NCBI GenBank assembly: GCA_903824785.1
Contig: CAIJYD010000056.1
Coordinates: 1-62,114, forward strand
DNA length: 62,114 bases
Source of the DNA: an uncultured Bacteroidota bacterium
GTDB lineage: Bacteria; Bacteroidota; Bacteroidia; Bacteroidales; VadinHA17
Reading direction: 5' to 3'
Positions 30,098 to 38,446 of the stretch are shown in pieces. The notes under the pieces were generated by a model. That model saw only the letters and a program-made list of their open reading frames with translations, searched no databases and was not told where the DNA came from. The position numbers and the translations under genes were made by a program. The stretch's first letter is position 1. The number at the start of each line of letters is the position of its first letter.

Positions 30098-30856
30098 TTA
30101 TTTTTCAAGCCACTTTCTGAAATCTGATGTTCGTGCGGCGCTGATCAAGATCTCATCATCTGATAAAGGAACCGTGCTGATCTTTAATCTGCTTTTTGAA
30201 AGAATGTCGATCTTTTCTATATTTTTATACTGAACAATATACTGCCGGTTCACCCTGAAGAATACCTCCGGATCCAAAATGGTTTCCAATAGATCAAGCG
30301 AAAATACAATGGGATAATGTCTTTTGCCTGCTGTGCAAAGAAAAGTGCTTTTTTCTTTGGAATAAAAGAATGCAACATCTCCTGTTTCAACAATTTTTAT
30401 TTTGCCTGAAATAGCAACAACGAACCGTTTTTTATATTTATCATTCCTGTTTTCAATAGTTGCCAGAAGCTTCTGAAGATTCACATTTTGTCCTGAAGAG
30501 CTGAGTTTTTTATATTTGGCAATGCTTTGTTCAAGCCTTGCTTCGCTGACAGGTTTAAGGAGGTAATCGACGCTGTTAAGCTCAAATGCTTTTATTGCAT
30601 ATTCATCATATGCAGTAGTGAAGATTACGTATGATTCAATTTTTATCTTTTTGAAAATATCAAAGCTCAGGCCATCTCCTAATTGTATGTCGAGCATAAT
30701 CAGATCTGGATGCGGATGGCTCTCAAACCACTTTATTGCCGACTCAACTGTATCAATTACAGAGATAACCTCAATTTCAGGGTTAAGGCTCTTCAGAAGC
30801 TTTTCAAGCCTGAAGGCAGCAAGTTGTTCATCTTCTATAATAAGGGTTGTAATCAT
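30098..30856 (-). CDS. LytTR-family response regulator
   Basis: 252 residues. The N-terminal receiver has the acidic pair E8/D9 and the phosphorylation site D56 (LIMLDIQLG), then TTAYDEYAIKAF with the conserved Thr and the Lys in LLKPVSE. The C-terminal LytTR DNA-binding domain (about 145-250) shows the GKIKIVETGDVAFFYSKE start and FFRVNRQYIVQYKNIEKI. It overlaps the sensor kinase gene by 4 bp (ATGA), so the two are translationally coupled. LytTR proteins bind two short direct repeats about two helical turns apart. Such repeats occur upstream of this operon at 34351-34378 and again at 38188-38215. Confidence 0.93.
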   Translation of the reverse strand: MITTLIIEDEQLAAFRLEKLLKSLNPEIEVISVIDTVESAIKWFESHPHPDLIMLDIQLGDGLSFDIFKKIKIESYVIFTTAYDEYAIKAFELNSVDYLLKPVSEARLEQSIAKYKKLSSSGQNVNLQKLLATIENRNDKYKKRFVVAISGKIKIVETGDVAFFYSKEKSTFLCTAGKRHYPIVFSLDLLETILDPEVFFRVNRQYIVQYKNIEKIDILSKSRLKISTVPLSDDEILISAARTSDFRKWLEK

Positions 30857-31863
30857 AATTCTACCTGCAGCAAGGGAATTTTCACCCTGAATATTTCACC
30901 ATTTTCAGTCACTACCATTTTTGCTGATGTGAAGAAACCATAACGTGCCCTGATATTTTCCAATCCTTGTCCGGTTGAAGTGACGCCAGTTTTTCTCTGA
31001 ATATTATTGGTGACAGTTATCGATTCATTGTCAGCAATTAATTCCACAATAAGCGGATTCTCCCTGGAGATGACATTGTGTTTTATTGAGTTCTCTACCA
31101 GCATTTGAAGCACAAGAGGAGGTACAACATGATTGTGAAGTTCCTCTGAGATACCAACTTTTATTTCAAGTGATCCGTGGAATCTTGTCATTTGAAGACT
31201 GATATAACTCCGGAGTATTTTGATCTCTTCACCTAGAGATACCAGCTCTTTCTCTCCGCTTTTCATCATATAACGAAGCAGGGCAGAGAGATTCTCAATA
31301 TATTCCACCACCGGTTTATTATCTTCCACCATGCTGGTGAGACTGTTAAGGCTGTTAAAGAGAAAATGGGGATTGATTTGTGCCCTGAGAGCCTCAAATC
31401 TCGCTTCAAGGTTATCTTTTTCTAGTCTTACAGATTTGGAGAAATTATACTTCCATTGTCTGTAAAAAAATGCTGATTCGTTAATAGTTGTAATAAAAAA
31501 CGTAATTAAAAGGGTTATGAATATATCCATCCCCGGATTAAGCATTTCAGGAAAATCAAAGTACTTTCTCTCCACTGAATAGAGGGCAATACTGAAAATA
31601 AGTGTATATACCAGGATGGCTGATATTTCGATAAGCAGATGCAGAACAGGCTTCTCCTCCCATGGGAATTTTTTCCAGAGTAAGGTCACGATTGTGGTGC
31701 ACCCCAGCCAGATTCCGGCAGTCATGGTAATGCCCTGAAATGCTATTTTGATTGATAAATCTGTATCCGATATTCCAAAGCTGATGAGGTAAACTCCTGC
31801 TATAATAATCCCGACCAGAGGTATAAGGCAAAAAAGGCTTTTATTAAAATATGTGTCTTTCAT
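30853..31863 (-). CDS. LytS-type sensor histidine kinase
   Basis: 336 residues from the ATG at 31863; a TTG 15 bp upstream would add only five residues. Four membrane helices span residues about 8-30, 38-63, 74-96 and 112-134, with no extracellular sensor domain. The kinase core has the HisKA_7TM/LytS-like motif AQINPHFLFNSLNSL with H166, and an ATPase domain with LVENSIKHN and GQGLENIRARYG. It phosphorylates the LytTR regulator encoded next. The TonB receptor gene precedes it by 29 bp, so ligand sensing may be linked to the receptor. Confidence 0.92.
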   Translation of the reverse strand: MKDTYFNKSLFCLIPLVGIIIAGVYLISFGISDTDLSIKIAFQGITMTAGIWLGCTTIVTLLWKKFPWEEKPVLHLLIEISAILVYTLIFSIALYSVERKYFDFPEMLNPGMDIFITLLITFFITTINESAFFYRQWKYNFSKSVRLEKDNLEARFEALRAQINPHFLFNSLNSLTSMVEDNKPVVEYIENLSALLRYMMKSGEKELVSLGEEIKILRSYISLQMTRFHGSLEIKVGISEELHNHVVPPLVLQMLVENSIKHNVISRENPLIVELIADNESITVTNNIQRKTGVTSTGQGLENIRARYGFFTSAKMVVTENGEIFRVKIPLLQVEL

Positions 31864-31892
31864 AGTTCTCAGATGCAAATCTATAAAATATT

Positions 31893-34268
31893 TCAGAACT
31901 GAATTCTGTAAAGGAACATAGGTATGAATCCCTGTTGATAAACATAGTACATTTCATCTTTTTTACCATCATAACCTTCCATAAAGATACTCCTGTAGCC
32001 TGTAATATTCTGCAGATCGATCCCCCACTCATGGCTGAATTTATTACGATTAACCTTAATGCCGAATCGAAGGTCGGTGCGGAAGTAGTCATCGTATTTA
32101 TTTTCATAAGCCCTTGACCAGTCATAAACAGTAGCATGCTGTTCCCTTGAAGCTTCAAGATCAAGGGGAATGTACCTTTTACCTCCTGCCCAGACTGTTC
32201 TGATATCAACAGTTAACATTGAACGTTGGCTTAATTTATGCTCATACCCCCCGAGCAGGTTAAATACATAGTTCCCGTTAAATGCACTGTTTCTCCATTT
32301 ATTGTCATATCCCTGATATAGGGAATTGAATACCGATGTGGTAAAAAGGAAATACCATCCACGGCTCATGAACTTTTCAACGGTCAATTCAATACCATAG
32401 TTTTTACCTTTCCCTGAATTGATAAGGCTGTCTTCCAAAGCAGAGCCGAACTGATCACCGATATTAATGAGTGAATATTCAGGGAAGGAAGCTTTAACGG
32501 GTATTTTATAAAGATGCTGGTAATAGCTTTCGAGTTTAACACGAAATTCATTGCTGAACAGGTACTGGTAGCCCAGGATAAGGTGTGCGCTTTTTGACAT
32601 TCCAACATCCTCATTAGTCCTTAGGTAGCTTCCTGTTACCGGGTTGTAATCCTGAAAATAGTAAACTCCTTTTGGCTGAAGCTGGCTGTGAAGTCCGAAT
32701 CCGAAATTAAATGATCCTTTTTCAGATATCTTATAACTTACACTCAGCCTTGGTTCGGCTGCAAGTTCCATGTTGATGCCGGCATACTGAAGATGAACCC
32801 CTGCATAGGTAGTCAGCCTTCCTCCGATAATATGCTGCCACTGGCCATAGGCTCTGTAGAGCATCATCTTTCCGTCAATATCCGTAAAAGTTACAAATCG
32901 TCTATAATCAGAGTCGTTTATACTGTCGAGATAATTGATGTTATATTTGTCTATAATAAGTCCAATGCTTGCGTTATCGGAAGCGCTGAACTTTTTTCTC
33001 AGTTGTGTCGAAAATGATAGTTTATTCTCAGTCTGATTTTCCCTGACAAAAGGGATGAAGGTTTCATTTTTTACTGAATCGACAAAAGCCTGAGAATTTG
33101 AATGCTGCCATGACAGGGTGGTTTTAATACGGGTTTTATTATTGAAATAGTAAGTATGTGATAGCCCGAGTACACCCAGCTCGGATCCAAAGTCAGTTGC
33201 TATCCCTAAAGGATTATACTGGTTTTCAGTTGTATCTGTCAGATCTCGTCCCAGGGCGATGAAGCTTTTTCCCCATAGACCAAAGAGTTTGAACCTTCCT
33301 GTTTTAGTGCCGGGTATATCAATCAGGAATGTAAGGTCCTGGTATTGAGGGATTGCAGTCCCGGTTCCTACACTAAATCCCATCTGGTTTACCAGTTCTA
33401 GAGTTGAATAGCGGTAATTGGCAAGAAAGGAGGCATTCTGACCATTTTTAAGTTTTAAGAGTGGGCCTTCTGCTCCAAATTCAAAACCGTTAAATCCAAC
33501 CTGTCCGGTAAATTCATGTTCATTTGCATTACCTGACCTGAGGTTAATATCAAACGCCCCTGCCAGTGCATTTCCATATTCAGCAGGGAAAGCTCCTGTA
33601 AGGAAATCAGAGTTGGCCAGAAGATTATTGTTTACCATACTGACAGGTCCTCCGGTTGTTCCCTGCGCACCAAAATGATTCGGGTTGGGGATCTCTATTC
33701 CCTCCAGTCTCCATAAGATTCCTGCAGGCGAATTACCTCTTATAATTATATCATTTCGTGAGTCATTCTGGGTCATTACACCTGCATAATTAGCTACCAT
33801 TCTGGCAGGATCGCCAAGACTTCCTGCAAAACGCTCGGTTTCCTCAACTGAAAAAGTACGCGCGCTGACTGTAGCCAATTCATTCTGCGCTTCCGACTTC
33901 TTTGAAGAGGCAGTAACCACAACTTCACTCAGTGCATTGGTTTTTTCAATAAGGGATATCTCCAGAACCAGCTCTTTCCCGCTCACGAGTAACATGTTGT
34001 TAAGTTCTTTCGATTCATATCCAAGATAGTTGATTTGCAGCGACTGTCTTCCCAGAGGAATATTTTTCATCTCAAATGTTCCGTTTATGTCTGTGAAAAC
34101 CCCAACCCTGGGTTCTGAATTCACGAGAACTACGGAAGCCCCGATTATGGGATATCCTGATACAGCATCAGTTACAGTACCGCGAATAGTCTGAGTCATT
34201 TCGTGAGCTGCTGATACAGAATAGATATTTAATAAAGAAATCCCAAGGACAATCAGAATGTTTTTCAT
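31893..34268 (-). CDS. TonB-dependent receptor with carboxypeptidase-like domain
   Basis: 791 residues from the ATG at 34268. The longer frame from a TTG at 34295 is rejected because that TTG lies within the -7 box and the signal peptide MKNILIVLGISLLNIYSVSA starts at 34268. A CarboxypepD-regulatory domain follows (about 27-112), then a plug (SRNDIIIRGNSPAG, AFPAEYGNALAG) and a long 22-strand-type barrel ending in the aromatic residue of FLYRIQF. It heads an operon with LytS and LytTR genes. No SusD-like gene is present. It probably imports or senses a peptide, siderophore-like or small glycan ligand; which one is unknown. Confidence 0.92.
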   Translation of the reverse strand: MKNILIVLGISLLNIYSVSAAHEMTQTIRGTVTDAVSGYPIIGASVVLVNSEPRVGVFTDINGTFEMKNIPLGRQSLQINYLGYESKELNNMLLVSGKELVLEISLIEKTNALSEVVVTASSKKSEAQNELATVSARTFSVEETERFAGSLGDPARMVANYAGVMTQNDSRNDIIIRGNSPAGILWRLEGIEIPNPNHFGAQGTTGGPVSMVNNNLLANSDFLTGAFPAEYGNALAGAFDINLRSGNANEHEFTGQVGFNGFEFGAEGPLLKLKNGQNASFLANYRYSTLELVNQMGFSVGTGTAIPQYQDLTFLIDIPGTKTGRFKLFGLWGKSFIALGRDLTDTTENQYNPLGIATDFGSELGVLGLSHTYYFNNKTRIKTTLSWQHSNSQAFVDSVKNETFIPFVRENQTENKLSFSTQLRKKFSASDNASIGLIIDKYNINYLDSINDSDYRRFVTFTDIDGKMMLYRAYGQWQHIIGGRLTTYAGVHLQYAGINMELAAEPRLSVSYKISEKGSFNFGFGLHSQLQPKGVYYFQDYNPVTGSYLRTNEDVGMSKSAHLILGYQYLFSNEFRVKLESYYQHLYKIPVKASFPEYSLINIGDQFGSALEDSLINSGKGKNYGIELTVEKFMSRGWYFLFTTSVFNSLYQGYDNKWRNSAFNGNYVFNLLGGYEHKLSQRSMLTVDIRTVWAGGKRYIPLDLEASREQHATVYDWSRAYENKYDDYFRTDLRFGIKVNRNKFSHEWGIDLQNITGYRSIFMEGYDGKKDEMYYVYQQGFIPMFLYRIQF

Positions 34269-34292
34269 GGCAATATGGTTATATATTTCAGG

Positions 34293-34383
34293 CAAAGCTA
34301 TTTCTGTTATTCCGCAACAAGAAATAAAACATTATGAAACAATGAAACAGGAAGATGAACGACGATTTTTGAAGATGAGTCAG
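34293..34383 (-). promoter_or_regulatory. Promoter and LytTR-type operator, copy A (TonB-LytS-LytTR operon)
   Basis: On the minus strand TAGCTTTG (34293-34300) is a full TAnnTTTG -7 box, 25 bp from the ATG. Upstream, after about 50 bp, GAAGATGA (plus-strand spelling) occurs at 34351-34358 and 34371-34378, a 20-bp period. The block from GTTATTCCG (34306) to GAGTCA (34383) is repeated with substitutions at 38144-38219, where the -7 box lies at the same distance. The site sits in front of an operon that encodes a LytTR regulator, so autoregulation is the natural reading. Binding is inferred. Confidence 0.6.
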
Positions 34384-34561
34384 TAAAGATAATAAAGAGT
34401 CATATCGGTTTTTAGTTGACAGAGGGTTTACTACTATGGTTATTCAGATTGCCCCACATTGTGGCACAATTAATATTGTAATATACATATCTCTGCTGAT
34501 TTGAAAATACTAAATATCAGATATTTATAGAACAGTTCAGTCAAATGGTTAATCGGAAAGA

Positions 34562-35197
34562 CTAAAACTTTACAAAAAAAGTAAGAATTCCCAATCCTGT
34601 CAGTACTATTCCGGTAATAAGCTTTTCATGATGTTCCAGGAAATGTAATTTAAGTTGTTTTGTGCCTTTAAAACCGGCATAAACGAACAAACACATTAGA
34701 AGTACAGTTGTAAATGTGTAAACGACTGAAACAATAAAGATACCTGCCCATCCTGTCATCCCTGCCTGAAAATAATAAGCTTCAATTTCAACGCACGGTG
34801 TGAGAAACATAGCTACACTTAGACTTACCAGGAGACTAATCCTTGATTTGGTACTGGTTTGAGTTTGCCTGTTTTCAGGATCTGTATGATGGAAATCGTT
34901 CACGCTTCTGAAATCCAGAATAATATAGATAATTCCTAAAACTATCAGGATGAATGGTGCCACATAATCTATGACAAAATTATATTTACTGGAAAGTTCA
35001 ATACCTATCAGCCCCACAATAATACCAATCAAAATTGTGCTTAATGTATGGGAAAATCCTGTTATTAAAGTTGCTGATAAGGTTTCTTTAAGAGTCCACT
35101 TTTCTGTTTTGCCAATAGCGAGAAGGGGGATCCAGTGGTTTGGTATCGAAGCATGGATTATGCTTAATGCAAGACTTCCAATGAAAATTTGCCACAT
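34562..35197 (-). CDS. Six-helix membrane protein, NicO/UreH-like putative metal exporter
   Basis: 211 residues with six predicted membrane helices. The first helix has HASIPNHWIPLLAIGK and the second TGFSHTLSTILIG. These His-containing motifs recall nickel/cobalt transporters (NicO, RcnA) and UreH/SafE-like families. A middle loop is His-rich (DFHHTDPE). The fifth region has MFLTPCVEIEAYYFQ. Metal transport is a family-level inference; the closest family cannot be fixed by eye. It lies between the LytTR operon and the methyltransferase, 92 bp after the latter's stop. Confidence 0.6.
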   Translation of the reverse strand: MWQIFIGSLALSIIHASIPNHWIPLLAIGKTEKWTLKETLSATLITGFSHTLSTILIGIIVGLIGIELSSKYNFVIDYVAPFILIVLGIIYIILDFRSVNDFHHTDPENRQTQTSTKSRISLLVSLSVAMFLTPCVEIEAYYFQAGMTGWAGIFIVSVVYTFTTVLLMCLFVYAGFKGTKQLKLHFLEHHEKLITGIVLTGLGILTFFVKF

Positions 35198-35289
35198 ATT
35201 TTTTTGTTTTGGTGAAGCGACTATTTAATAACTCTGATCTTTTTTTACAAGATTAATTATTAATCACATCTGCTCAACTTCTTTAGAGC

Positions 35290-36273
35290 TTATTTCAATG
35301 GTTTCTCAATCAGAAAGTAAGCTCCGAAATTAATAGTCCCTTCATCAACAAGATCAAATCCGCCCGCGCGGAATAGTTTTTTCCAGTCAGACCGTGTGGC
35401 AAACGCAAGGCTTAGTATGTTAGCCAATGCAAAAGATGCATAACCTCTTACAACAATAATCAACAGGAACCTTCCTCCTGGTTTCAATAAGCGCCACATT
35501 TCCTTTAACCCCGGTAATTTATTTTCCCCCAGATGGTCAAACATATAGGAACTTACAGCGGCATCAAAGGTATTTTCAGCAAAAGGCATTGACGTAATAT
35601 CACCCTGCTCTATTTTTACCCGTGAAGATATTCCGGCCAGATCTAAATTTCTTCTGAGTAAAGTTTTACCACCATCATCAATATAATTGGCATCAAAACG
35701 ATCAAATGCAACAATGTTAATGTCCGATGATGTTTTTGATAGCGAAATAGTAGTTCTTCCTGCCCCGCAGCCAACATCAATTACATTATTCTTTCCTGCT
35801 TTATACAGGCCAACGTATGGTAAGATAATATTAGTGGTGCTGTTCGAATCCCTCGCAATAATATTTCCAAGGAAAAGGTTGACAGCCAGCAAAAGGAGGA
35901 AGGTAAATAAAATAATTTGCAAGGCAGGATTTCCGGCCAGACTGAAATAGGAATAGAAGGCTAACAGGACCACAATGAAAGAGGCGACTCCAAAACCTTT
36001 GTTCCATTTAGAAGACCATCCAAAATCAAAACTTTCAGGAGCTGTTTGCTTTCTGAATTTTTTCAGTGTTTTTTCCGGAAGCAGCATCCACCCTCCGAAA
36101 ACTGTTATGAGGAATATCAGAGCATGACTTACGATCAACCCGGTAAGGATCGAAGGGAATAGTTTTTCATCGGGAAGAACGTTGATGTAGATTATAGCCA
36201 GAATTGCAGCGACACCAATAACAATACCTGTATGCGAATGGCTTCCAAACCATGTTTTATTCTTTGTCTCCAT
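35290..36273 (-). CDS. Membrane-anchored class I SAM-dependent methyltransferase
   Basis: 327 residues from the ATG at 36273; an upstream extension to 36309 adds only MIFVSIILKHKL and is not needed. Four membrane helices occupy about residues 12-130. The methyltransferase domain then follows with motif I NVIDVGCGAGRTT, motif II around IVAFDRFDANYI, motif IV FDAAVSSYMFDHLG and LKPGGRFLLIIVVRG. The four-helix anchor with a Methyltransf_11-type domain suggests action on a membrane-associated substrate. The substrate is not known. Confidence 0.82.
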   Translation of the reverse strand: METKNKTWFGSHSHTGIVIGVAAILAIIYINVLPDEKLFPSILTGLIVSHALIFLITVFGGWMLLPEKTLKKFRKQTAPESFDFGWSSKWNKGFGVASFIVVLLAFYSYFSLAGNPALQIILFTFLLLLAVNLFLGNIIARDSNSTTNIILPYVGLYKAGKNNVIDVGCGAGRTTISLSKTSSDINIVAFDRFDANYIDDGGKTLLRRNLDLAGISSRVKIEQGDITSMPFAENTFDAAVSSYMFDHLGENKLPGLKEMWRLLKPGGRFLLIIVVRGYASFALANILSLAFATRSDWKKLFRAGGFDLVDEGTINFGAYFLIEKPLK

Positions 36274-36383
36274 TAGTTTATGTTTTAATATTATGGAAAC
36301 AAAGATCACCTGATTTCATCTTAAGAAGTTTGCATTTCTTGCGAATTTGTTTGCAAATCTTGCGACAACATTCAAAAGGCTGA

Positions 36384-37322
36384 CTATTGTTTTCTGATCG
36401 GAATTAAGAGAGAGCGATTTATCTTTTCATAAAGTTCGTTTGCAGGGCTAACTTCAAAGTGTTCATAGCAAATCATTTCTGAGATTGAGTAACCCATTGA
36501 ATCAATATAATTATGGTTTAACGCAATAAGTGAATTCAATGTATCATTAATGTCCCCTGTCATTTTGTAATTGAGATACAGACCTTTATTAAATGTAAGA
36601 ATAACGATTCCTTTGTTTGGTTTAACCTCAGAACTCAATTCAATTCCACAAAGATACCGGCATTTATCGGGAGGTGTTAAATAGGGAATGTCGAGCCAGA
36701 TTCCGAAGAATCTTGTGGCAGGAGAAATTAGTTGTTGTGGAACAGCCCATTGAATAAGGCTTTTAAAAGCAAAGGATATGTTCTCCCTGTGACTGAGAGT
36801 TGTCTGGATAGCTGCAATTTTGAAAGAATACATTGTGCTGATTACAGGTTCGGAAGATATTTTTACAGAATCGATTTTTTCCTGAATATCAGAAACAGGA
36901 GTTATCCATTGTGCTTCCTGTTCATTTGGAGACCGGTTTCTCTTCTTTTTTATCTCCTGCATCATATTTCCCGGAAGTTTCCTGTAGTTATCAGCAGAAA
37001 TGCCATAATAATTTTTAAAAGCCCGGCTGAATACTGAGTTGGAAGAAAAGCCGCAACCTGACGCAATTTCATTAATCGGCAGATAGGGGAAGATCTTTAT
37101 GAAATGTGCAGCTCTTTCCAGCCTGAGTCGGATTACATATTGCTTGGGTGTTTCCAATACTGCCTCAGTAAAGATTTTCTGAAAGTGGAATGGAGAATAA
37201 TTGGCTAATTCCGATAAGGTTTTCAGAGAAACATCGCCGGTAAGGGTCACATTTATATAATTCTGAACCTTCATTACAACCTGCTGGTATTCAGGTTTAA
37301 TAAAATGATTGTGTATGTGCAT
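36384..37322 (-). CDS. AraC-family regulator with GyrI-like effector domain
   Basis: 312 residues. The N-terminal about 115 residues are two helix-turn-helix motifs of the AraC/XylS type (LSELANYSPFHFQKIF and INEIASGCGFSSNSVFSRAF). The C-terminal about 155 residues are a GyrI-like small-molecule-binding domain (FFGIWLDIPYLTPPDKCRYL). This architecture is typical of Rob/SoxS-like multidrug or stress regulators. It lies between the methyltransferase and the oxidoreductase, all on the minus strand. A full -7 box (TATCTTTG) at 37340-37347 indicates its own promoter. Confidence 0.88.
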   Translation of the reverse strand: MHIHNHFIKPEYQQVVMKVQNYINVTLTGDVSLKTLSELANYSPFHFQKIFTEAVLETPKQYVIRLRLERAAHFIKIFPYLPINEIASGCGFSSNSVFSRAFKNYYGISADNYRKLPGNMMQEIKKKRNRSPNEQEAQWITPVSDIQEKIDSVKISSEPVISTMYSFKIAAIQTTLSHRENISFAFKSLIQWAVPQQLISPATRFFGIWLDIPYLTPPDKCRYLCGIELSSEVKPNKGIVILTFNKGLYLNYKMTGDINDTLNSLIALNHNYIDSMGYSISEMICYEHFEVSPANELYEKINRSLLIPIRKQ

Positions 37323-37339
37323 GGTTATTTACTCCGGAG

Positions 37340-37347
37340 CAAAGATA
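37340..37347 (-). promoter_or_regulatory. -7 promoter box of the AraC/GyrI gene
   Basis: The minus strand reads TATCTTTG, a full TAnnTTTG match, 17 bp upstream of the ATG at 37322. A distinct -33 box is not obvious. Confidence 0.5.
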
Positions 37348-37454
37348 ATAAAACAGTAGTAATGCGTTTTATTTCATTCCATCAATGAATAGAGAATGTA
37401 ATTTTGCGCAGTTATGTAAAAAGAAATAAGTATTTATTAGCTGAAAGCTTTCAC

Positions 37455-38033
37455 TTATTTTTGTTTTTGGCCTAAACTTTCAGCGGTTTTTAACCATTCA
37501 GCTCTCTTCTTTTCGCTGGCTGTTCTTATAGGACCAAATGAGGTGATTTTTACCGGCTTGATACCTGAAAATTCAAGAACTCCCACCTTCATTGCATGGT
37601 GACCGGCATTTCGGTTAATAAGCCAGTAATACCATTTAGGAGTATCCATTGTTACAATCAGTCGTGCTGTTTTCCCTGTTAATAGTTTATCCCAAAGGGG
37701 TGAATTATCACGATATGCGAAAGCAAATTTTGGAAGAAAAACTCTGTCAATGAACCCCTTTAATAATGCAGGATAGGTACTCCACCAGTTAGGATACACT
37801 ATTACTATATGGTCAGATTCAGAAATATCATGCTGAATTGTTACCAGATCCGGTTCAAGTTCGGTGCGGTGTCTGTAACCAAATTTCAAAACAGGATTGA
37901 ACTCCAGTTCGGTAAGGTTCACCAGTTTGCATGGAGCTCCGGAGGCATCAGCACCCTTTTTATAAATTGCAGCCAGTGCGGAGCAAAAACTTTCTTTATC
38001 GGGATGTCCGTTAATGATCAATACTTTTTTCAT
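37455..38033 (-). CDS. NAD(P)H-dependent flavodoxin-fold oxidoreductase (MdaB/KefF-like)
   Basis: 192 residues, normal for the family. The N-terminus KVLIINGHPDKESFCSAL is the FMN-phosphate loop. IVYPNWWSTYPALLKGFIDR is the flavin-binding motif of the NQO1/KefF/MdaB group. These enzymes reduce quinones or electrophiles with NAD(P)H. The upstream region (38131-38219) carries a second copy of the promoter/operator block found before the TonB-LytS-LytTR operon, suggesting the gene belongs to the same regulon. It precedes the AraC/GyrI gene by about 130 bp. Confidence 0.9.
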   Translation of the reverse strand: MKKVLIINGHPDKESFCSALAAIYKKGADASGAPCKLVNLTELEFNPVLKFGYRHRTELEPDLVTIQHDISESDHIVIVYPNWWSTYPALLKGFIDRVFLPKFAFAYRDNSPLWDKLLTGKTARLIVTMDTPKWYYWLINRNAGHHAMKVGVLEFSGIKPVKITSFGPIRTASEKKRAEWLKTAESLGQKQK

Positions 38034-38130
38034 TTTTCCAAGATTATTTTATTAATAAATGTGATTTGTTTTATATCAATCCATGAATAATCAGTCTGTT
38101 CTTCATGGAAATCTTATTTCAACTTTCTGG

Positions 38131-38219
38131 TAAAGTTATTTATGTTATTCCGAACGGAAAATAAAACCTTACGAAATATGAAAACAGGAAGATGAATGAA
38201 GATTTTCGAAGACGAATCA
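38131..38219 (-). promoter_or_regulatory. Promoter and LytTR-type operator, copy B (oxidoreductase gene)
   Basis: The minus-strand -7 box TAACTTTA (38131-38138, 7 of 8 matches) is followed upstream by GTTATTCCG at 38144 and then by GAAGATGA at 38188-38195 and GAAGACGA at 38208-38215 (plus spelling; 20-bp period). Order and spacing are the same as in copy A: 5 bp between -7 box and GTTATTCCG, and about 49 bp from box to first repeat. About three quarters of the bases agree by eye. The remainder of the 413-bp gap 38034-38446 shows no supported gene. Confidence 0.55.
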
Positions 38220-38446
38220 ACAATGGAAGGTCAGAGTCGGACTTGTAATGGTTCCTTTAACCTGTTAAAGGTGAAGTCCTTCATCCAGGTGAACTTATTC
38301 AACTCATGTTCACAATTATCAATGTCTCTGGGAGTACAAAAACAAAAGGTTAATTTTTACTTCTCCTGCCATTTGGTTCAGGAAGCAGGAAAGTGTTGCA
38401 GCTTTAAGGAAGTCCCTGAAATGTTAAAACATTTGAACTGCCATAA

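Follow-up and report, generated by a model that had tools for sequence, protein, structure and literature searches.

LytTR sites are described as pairs of repeats, direct or inverse, each 9-11 nt long and separated by 11-13 nt, without a common consensus (PMC4847170); in operons of the LRS type the repeats lie mostly 10 bp before the -35 element (PMC6193735), and the sites of RcoM1 and CoxC hold three repeats (PMC11347149). The promoter of a Bacteroides LRS-like operon is given as TCCGGTATTCA-11-ACCGGAAATCA, 11 bp, TGTA-19-TATCTTTG (PMC6193735), and PMC7366714 cites TAnnTTTG as the -7 consensus; here and below, statements on these four papers refer to excerpts of them. We analysed a 62,114-nucleotide stretch of DNA from an uncultured member of the Bacteroidales (contig CAIJYD010000056.1 of assembly GCA_903824785.1), called the window below, in which the promoter block of an operon for a TonB-dependent receptor, a LytS-type sensor kinase and a LytTR response regulator occurs a second time before a flavodoxin-fold oxidoreductase gene.

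We consider it probable (roughly 0.7) that positions 34293-34379 are the LytTR promoter of this TonB-LytS-LytTR operon, self-activating, and duplicated before the oxidoreductase gene, both binding and activity being predictions. In the mechanism that we propose, the phosphorylated regulator would bind TTCATC-type half-sites, spaced by two helical turns, that lie immediately upstream of a poor -33 region; RNA polymerase would be recruited to the TAnnTTTG box, with the result that the operon would turn itself on. In this lineage the promoter and the first receptor codons were duplicated 3.8 kb upstream, to a place that is now in front of a gene resembling NAD(P)H quinone reductases, and the second copy would bring this enzyme under the same signal.

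Two copies of the receptor promoter

A first-pass annotation of the window had claimed that a block with a -7 box, CGGAATAAC 5 bp upstream of it and two direct repeats of 20-bp period precedes both the operon and the oxidoreductase gene. The places, order and spacing were confirmed. The two copies lie on the minus strand (Table 1) and can be aligned over their full length of about 176 bp, with 128 of 176 aligned bases identical (about 27% divergence) and a local alignment score of 150, where 300 first-order resamplings reached at most 47. Each copy runs from three TTCATC-type half-sites through a gap to the -7 box and an ATG, which stands 32 bp from the first base of the box in both; the half-site periods are also the same, and the gap is one base shorter in copy 2. 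The repeats described earlier, of the GAAGATGA type, are indeed present at 34351-34378 and 38188-38215, but a third repeat lies nearer the promoter and the homology is longer than had been stated. The core common with relatives is TTCAKC, in a register slightly shifted from GAAGATGA. The element CGGAATAAC is common to both copies (34306-34314 and 38144-38152), but it is absent from the consensus of 27 aligned related promoters.

The homology extends into the TonB reading frame, with 97 of 132 bases identical before the ATG and 31 of 44 past it. In copy 1 this ATG is the start of the TonB receptor; in copy 2 it opens a relic frame that reaches a stop after eleven codons, beyond which the flavodoxin-fold gene starts at 38033. 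Since the homology takes in the beginning of the receptor gene, with its start codon and the codons that follow, copy 2 is a duplicate of the TonB receptor's promoter and carries a relic of its gene start.

Table 1. Coordinates of the promoter copies and of the genes discussed in the text
Feature	Position	Strand	Remark
Promoter block, copy 1	34224..34401	-	from upstream of the repeats to the first TonB codons; by alignment to copy 2
Half-site R1 CTCATC, copy 1	34374..34379	-	
Half-site R2 TTCATC, copy 1	34354..34359	-	20 bp from R1; pair present in relatives
Half-site R3 TTCATA, copy 1	34333..34338	-	21 bp from R2; 32 bp before -7 box
-7 box TAGCTTTG, copy 1	34293..34300	-	consensus TAnnTTTG (PMC7366714, excerpt)
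Promoter block, copy 2	38063..38238	-	by alignment to copy 1
Half-site R1 TTCGTC, copy 2	38211..38216	-	
Half-site R2 TTCATC, copy 2	38191..38196	-	20 bp from R1
Half-site R3 TTCGTA, copy 2	38170..38175	-	21 bp from R2; 31 bp before -7 box
-7 box TAACTTTA, copy 2	38131..38138	-	final base departs from TAnnTTTG
Relic TonB start, copy 2	38071..38106	-	ATG AAG AAC ... TAA; MKNRLIIHGLI, compared with MKNILIVLGIS
TonB-dependent receptor gene	31893..34268	-	CarboxypepD_reg-like and Plug domains
LytS-type sensor kinase	30853..31878	-	PF06580
LytTR response regulator	30098..30856	-	PF00072 and PF04397; proposed repeat binder
Flavodoxin-fold NAD(P)H oxidoreductase gene	37455..38033	-	PF02525; quinone reductase kin

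Half-sites and promoter before related operons

Because the copies are a duplication, their likeness says nothing on function, and the block similarity could reflect shared descent alone, with repeats that have no regulatory role. Among 146 genomes, 56 held relatives of the TonB gene (E<=1e-100), as did 28 of 393 genomes of the order (E<=1e-240), the own genome being counted each time; from a named genome collection, 80 of 90 loci were kept. The locus pool consisted of L027, L034, L036-L056 and L117-L217, with L028-L033 and L035 excluded because their contigs recur as L138, L139, L211, L141, L146, L153 and L206. A locus was called linked when a LytS or LytR match (E<1e-15, same strand) lay within 4.5 kb downstream, and unlinked when no such match was seen in at least 1.4 kb of downstream DNA, a definition that a more distant LytS could escape and that places L151 among the unlinked loci though it has LytS/LytR homologues on the other strand. 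Loci with less than 150 bp upstream were dropped and upstreams more than 90% identical were merged, leaving 34 linked loci (window included), 57 unlinked loci and 25 unclassed loci with too little downstream DNA.

Among the linked loci, a TTCAKC pair with a spacing of 20 or 21 bp scored at least 10 of 12 in 26 of 34, where 4.4 were expected (the nulls are first-order resamplings, not exact shuffles), and at least 11 in 18 of 34 (0.48 expected). The corresponding counts were 7 of 57 (4.0 expected) and 5 of 57 (0.37 expected) for unlinked loci, and the lower threshold was reached in 8 of 25 unclassed ones (2.5 expected). When spacings of 10-33 bp were scanned, pairs scoring at least 11 occurred in 13 linked loci at 21 bp and in 8 at 20 bp, the next most frequent spacing being 16 bp with 5; on the opposite strand, scores of at least 10 were obtained by none at 20 bp and one at 21 bp. 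In the window, direct repeats about two helical turns apart (20 and 21 bp) stand upstream of the promoter. A pair scoring at least 9 of 12 together with TAnnTTTG at 31-33 or 52-54 bp was found in 25 of the 34 linked loci, window included, and in 4 of the 57 unlinked ones; 200 resampled sets of the linked loci averaged 0.11 such loci and never gave more than 1. A distance of exactly 32 bp was seen at 20 loci and one of exactly 53 bp at 10, values that are one repeat apart, and a strict three-repeat rule was followed by 7 of 34. Among 19 loci uninspected before the motif was set, 15 scored at least 10 (2.7 expected) and 15 had the full layout; the 32-bp spacing was spotted on the whole set, and the held-out comparison therefore applies to the half-site pair but not to the spacing.

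By alignability, the 34 upstream regions form 14 clusters, the largest with 19 members, and the layout is present in 10 of the 14. The half-sites and their distance from the box therefore recur before related operons whose upstream regions cannot be aligned with one another, which argues against descent alone; for copy 1 we disfavour that explanation, and as an account of the block we regard it as highly improbable. The consensus of 27 of the 34 regions, selected by a loose rule and aligned on the box, reads tTCa, 21 bp on tTCatca, then TTttaTTTt and TA.tTTTG. The element TTttaTTTt occupies the expected -33 position, and a clear -33 box is not visible. From the end of R3 to TAnnTTTG there are 32 bp, so that a 4-bp -33 box placed 19 bp away, like that of the Bacteroides promoter, would leave 9 bp.

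The candidate binder of these half-sites is encoded in the operon itself, its PF04397 domain scoring 59.1 bits (cut-off 22.6). LytTR-domain residues such as Q205 (95%) and W249 (all) are common to 21 aligned orthologous regulators, window included, and differ in the 7 same-genome paralogues compared. A different regulator might bind the repeats instead, for example the AraC-type protein encoded at 36384-37322, between the two copies. Direct repeats with a spacing of about two turns can be bound by AraC proteins as well. However, the layout goes with neighbouring LytS/LytTR genes (25/34 versus 4/57), and no relative of the AraC-type gene was found at E<=1e-6 in 20 stretches around related TonB genes; we consider such a regulator improbable.

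Several observations weigh against the LytTR promoter that we propose. The full layout is absent from 9 of 34 linked loci and present in the four unlinked ones, L044, L052, L054 and L152. At L044, LytS and LytR genes lie just upstream, while no LytS/LytR was found within 1.5 kb on either side at L052 and L054, and L152 has only a weak receiver-type match 5.5 kb off. In addition, TTCAKC pairs are somewhat commoner in linked than in unlinked loci at other spacings too (for instance, 13/34 score at least 10 at 13 bp). Nevertheless, the layout in 25 of 34 linked loci (window included) and its fit to published LytTR sites make autoregulation of the operon by the regulator at 30098-30856, as the first-pass annotation had predicted, well supported on comparative grounds; the same comparison bears out that relatives that keep the operon mostly retain the repeats.

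The layout was also searched as a fixed pattern, TTCAKC-N15-TTCAKC-N32-TAnnTTTG. Across the 393 genomes, with up to one mismatch, at least 144 genomes had a match. Among 20 intergenic-looking sites chosen by eye, 4 had LytS and/or LytR in the first four downstream open reading frames (L249, L250, L253 and L258), a hand-picked sample that gives no rate. In three genomes (L254, L257 and L263) a TTCATC pair and TAnnTTTG precede similar runs of open reading frames of about 210, 450-480, 375-400 and 180-210 codons, none of which matched LytS or LytTR; another regulator may thus use a similar layout.

The copy before the oxidoreductase gene

The oxidoreductase is a flavodoxin-like NAD(P)H enzyme whose best solved relative is named putative NADPH quinone oxidoreductase. 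Homologues 49-67% identical to it are present in the cluster at 8 of the 34 linked loci, and in 5 of these 8 the gene lies between TonB and LytS. The whole promoter having been copied before the oxidoreductase gene, and homologues being found in 8 of 34 clusters, control of this gene by the LytTR regulator is plausible, and we read copy 2 as a recent promoter capture with putative activity.

A number of findings count against this activity. The 24 key positions of the operator are identical in 20 cases, compared with 108 of 152 positions elsewhere (Fisher P=0.16), and the operator of copy 2 is therefore not clearly better kept than its surroundings; its -7 box, TAACTTTA, lacks the final G. The duplicated block was matched at E<=0.001 in 4 of 146 genomes, namely the own genome and three others with 25-42 of 178 bases. 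The duplication thus seems, on these matches, specific to this lineage, and for that reason the likeness between the copies is no evidence of function. Among 30 other oxidoreductase genes, none had an upstream operator score of at least 11 (L286 has 10). The earlier claim that the regulator controls the oxidoreductase accordingly stands in part: the copied promoter and the clustered homologues speak for it, while the likeness of the two sites reflects recent duplication and the key positions give it no clear help.

These same features fit an account in which copy 1 works and copy 2 is a decaying relic of a segmental duplication that has lost its receptor gene, the oxidoreductase being transcribed from a different promoter or independently of LytTR. 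The receptor start with its early stop, the indifferent conservation of the key positions, the altered box with its 31-bp gap and the lack of an operator scoring at least 11 before the 30 other oxidoreductase genes are all as such a relic would have them. Against it, three half-sites and most of the promoter persist despite the divergence of about 27%, and the clusters with an oxidoreductase homologue make shared control sensible. We hold this account to be possible and give it real, if minority, weight.

How the enzyme came to be associated with such operons was approached through a tree of its homologues. The 8 in-cluster homologues form three well-supported groups, one of which also has genes without LytS in the DNA fetched; in all, 31 oxidoreductase loci were examined (window included), of which 3 had a LytS homologue inside the 1.5 kb fetched. 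The window's gene belongs to none of the three groups and stands apart from the in-cluster homologue of a same-genus relative, in a tree whose backbone lacks resolution, a further point that weighs against our reading; this tree lends no support to inheritance from an operon resembling the one in the same-genus relative. These findings suggest, short of proof, more than one recruitment of the enzyme, here via promoter duplication, and a single origin remains compatible with the tree. More broadly, the TonB-LytS-LytTR systems of Bacteroidales may repeatedly gain an NAD(P)H quinone-reductase-like enzyme, as an operon gene or through a promoter copy, for receptor-linked sensing and detoxification of a redox-active or aromatic compound. 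We put this forward as a doubtful proposal, since the tree, with its backbone lacking resolution, leaves independent gains conjectural.

Two further homologues were seen. The relative with the most similar TonB (81%) carries, at L086:7996-8457 (G017:C101), an oxidoreductase homologue without about its first 70 residues, preceded by CTTATC-N14-TTCATC (score 10/12) and a TAAAATTTTG stretch; the site is possibly a separate, broken promoter capture, or chance. Elsewhere in the genome of the window, L082 (G000:C83:6356-6646) is a fragment of another homologue (residues 94-190).

The first-pass annotation had also suggested that the block defines a LytTR regulon, marked by GAAGAYGA-N12-GAAGAYGA. The exact pair occurs only at the two copies, both in the window and genome-wide, and with up to 2 mismatches the genome gave 14 matches, versus 17 for the reversed control, so that this pair was rejected as a regulon marker. 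No third copy of the block reached a significant E-value genome-wide, the next best being 0.014. The fixed layout pattern gave 71 sites in the own genome with up to 3 mismatches, versus 10 for the reversed control: copy 1 alone with 1 mismatch; 7 sites with 2, every one within an open reading frame; and 63 with 3, of which 52 lie in open reading frames of at least 120 codons and 11 are not wholly inside one. No convincing third promoter was seen among them, though the 11 were not taken further, and the fixed gap misses copy 2, whose gap is 1 base shorter, as it could miss diverged sites. The surplus over the reversed control seems to arise from coding sequence. A pair pattern, TTCAKC-N5-AAATY-N4-TTCAKC, gave 19 sites with up to 2 mismatches (reversed control, 1): the two copies, both with 1 mismatch, C99:3921 as an exact match, and 16 others with 2 mismatches. 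C99:3921, a better match than either copy, lies within an open reading frame; 14 of the 16 lie in open reading frames and the other 2 have no TAnnTTTG within 80 bp. Ten LytTR domains are encoded in the genome; in 8 stretches around the other nine genes (three stretches end early at contig ends), 4 pairs scored at least 11, none with TAnnTTTG within 70 bp downstream on the sense strand. The operator was therefore not found before further genes of this genome by these searches, which would overlook sites of greater divergence, and this counts against a wider regulon; support for one does not go beyond the two promoters.

Other genes of the same genome deserve mention. Between the copies, 34562-35197 encodes a 211-residue protein, membrane-like by eye, that matched nothing in Pfam (E<=0.001) or NCBIfam (E<=1e-5). 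Positions 6-1637 of the window, which reach the contig start, hold a paralogue of the TonB receptor (41% identical). A second series of TonB gene, LytS and LytTR lies at L311 (G000:C130:46800-51936), its TonB gene cut by the contig end and its promoter out of view.

Comparison with described LytTR systems

No such operon was found in print by literature searches of partial coverage, and it may be described elsewhere. The present analysis offers a predicted operator, defined by sequence, for an operon of Bacteroidales that joins receptor and two-component genes and occurs in many genomes, together with a clear example of duplication putting a gene behind the promoter of a regulator; the recurrent oxidoreductase partner hints at the nature of the receptor's signal.

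Three described systems resemble this one. On PyhjX, YpdB, the regulator of a LytS/LytTR-type pair, binds direct repeats about two helical turns apart, as is predicted here; however, the YpdB half-site is GGCATTTCAT (PMC4847170) and ours is TTCAKC, in a promoter of the Bacteroidota TAnnTTTG type. The RcoM and CoxC operators, like the present one, have three direct repeats about two helical turns apart, but these regulators respond to CO, and the CoxC operator overlaps the -35 element and CoxC represses (PMC11347149). The Bacteroides LRS-like operons (PMC6193735) share direct repeats before a TAnnTTTG promoter. There, the end of the proximal repeat (...ATCA) lies 11+4+19 = 34 bp from the -7 box, and here the distance is 34 bp from the TTCA end, in a register of our choosing. 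Those operons encode another type of membrane protein and a membrane-bound LytTR regulator, whereas the operon in the window combines a TonB receptor, a LytS kinase and a response regulator.

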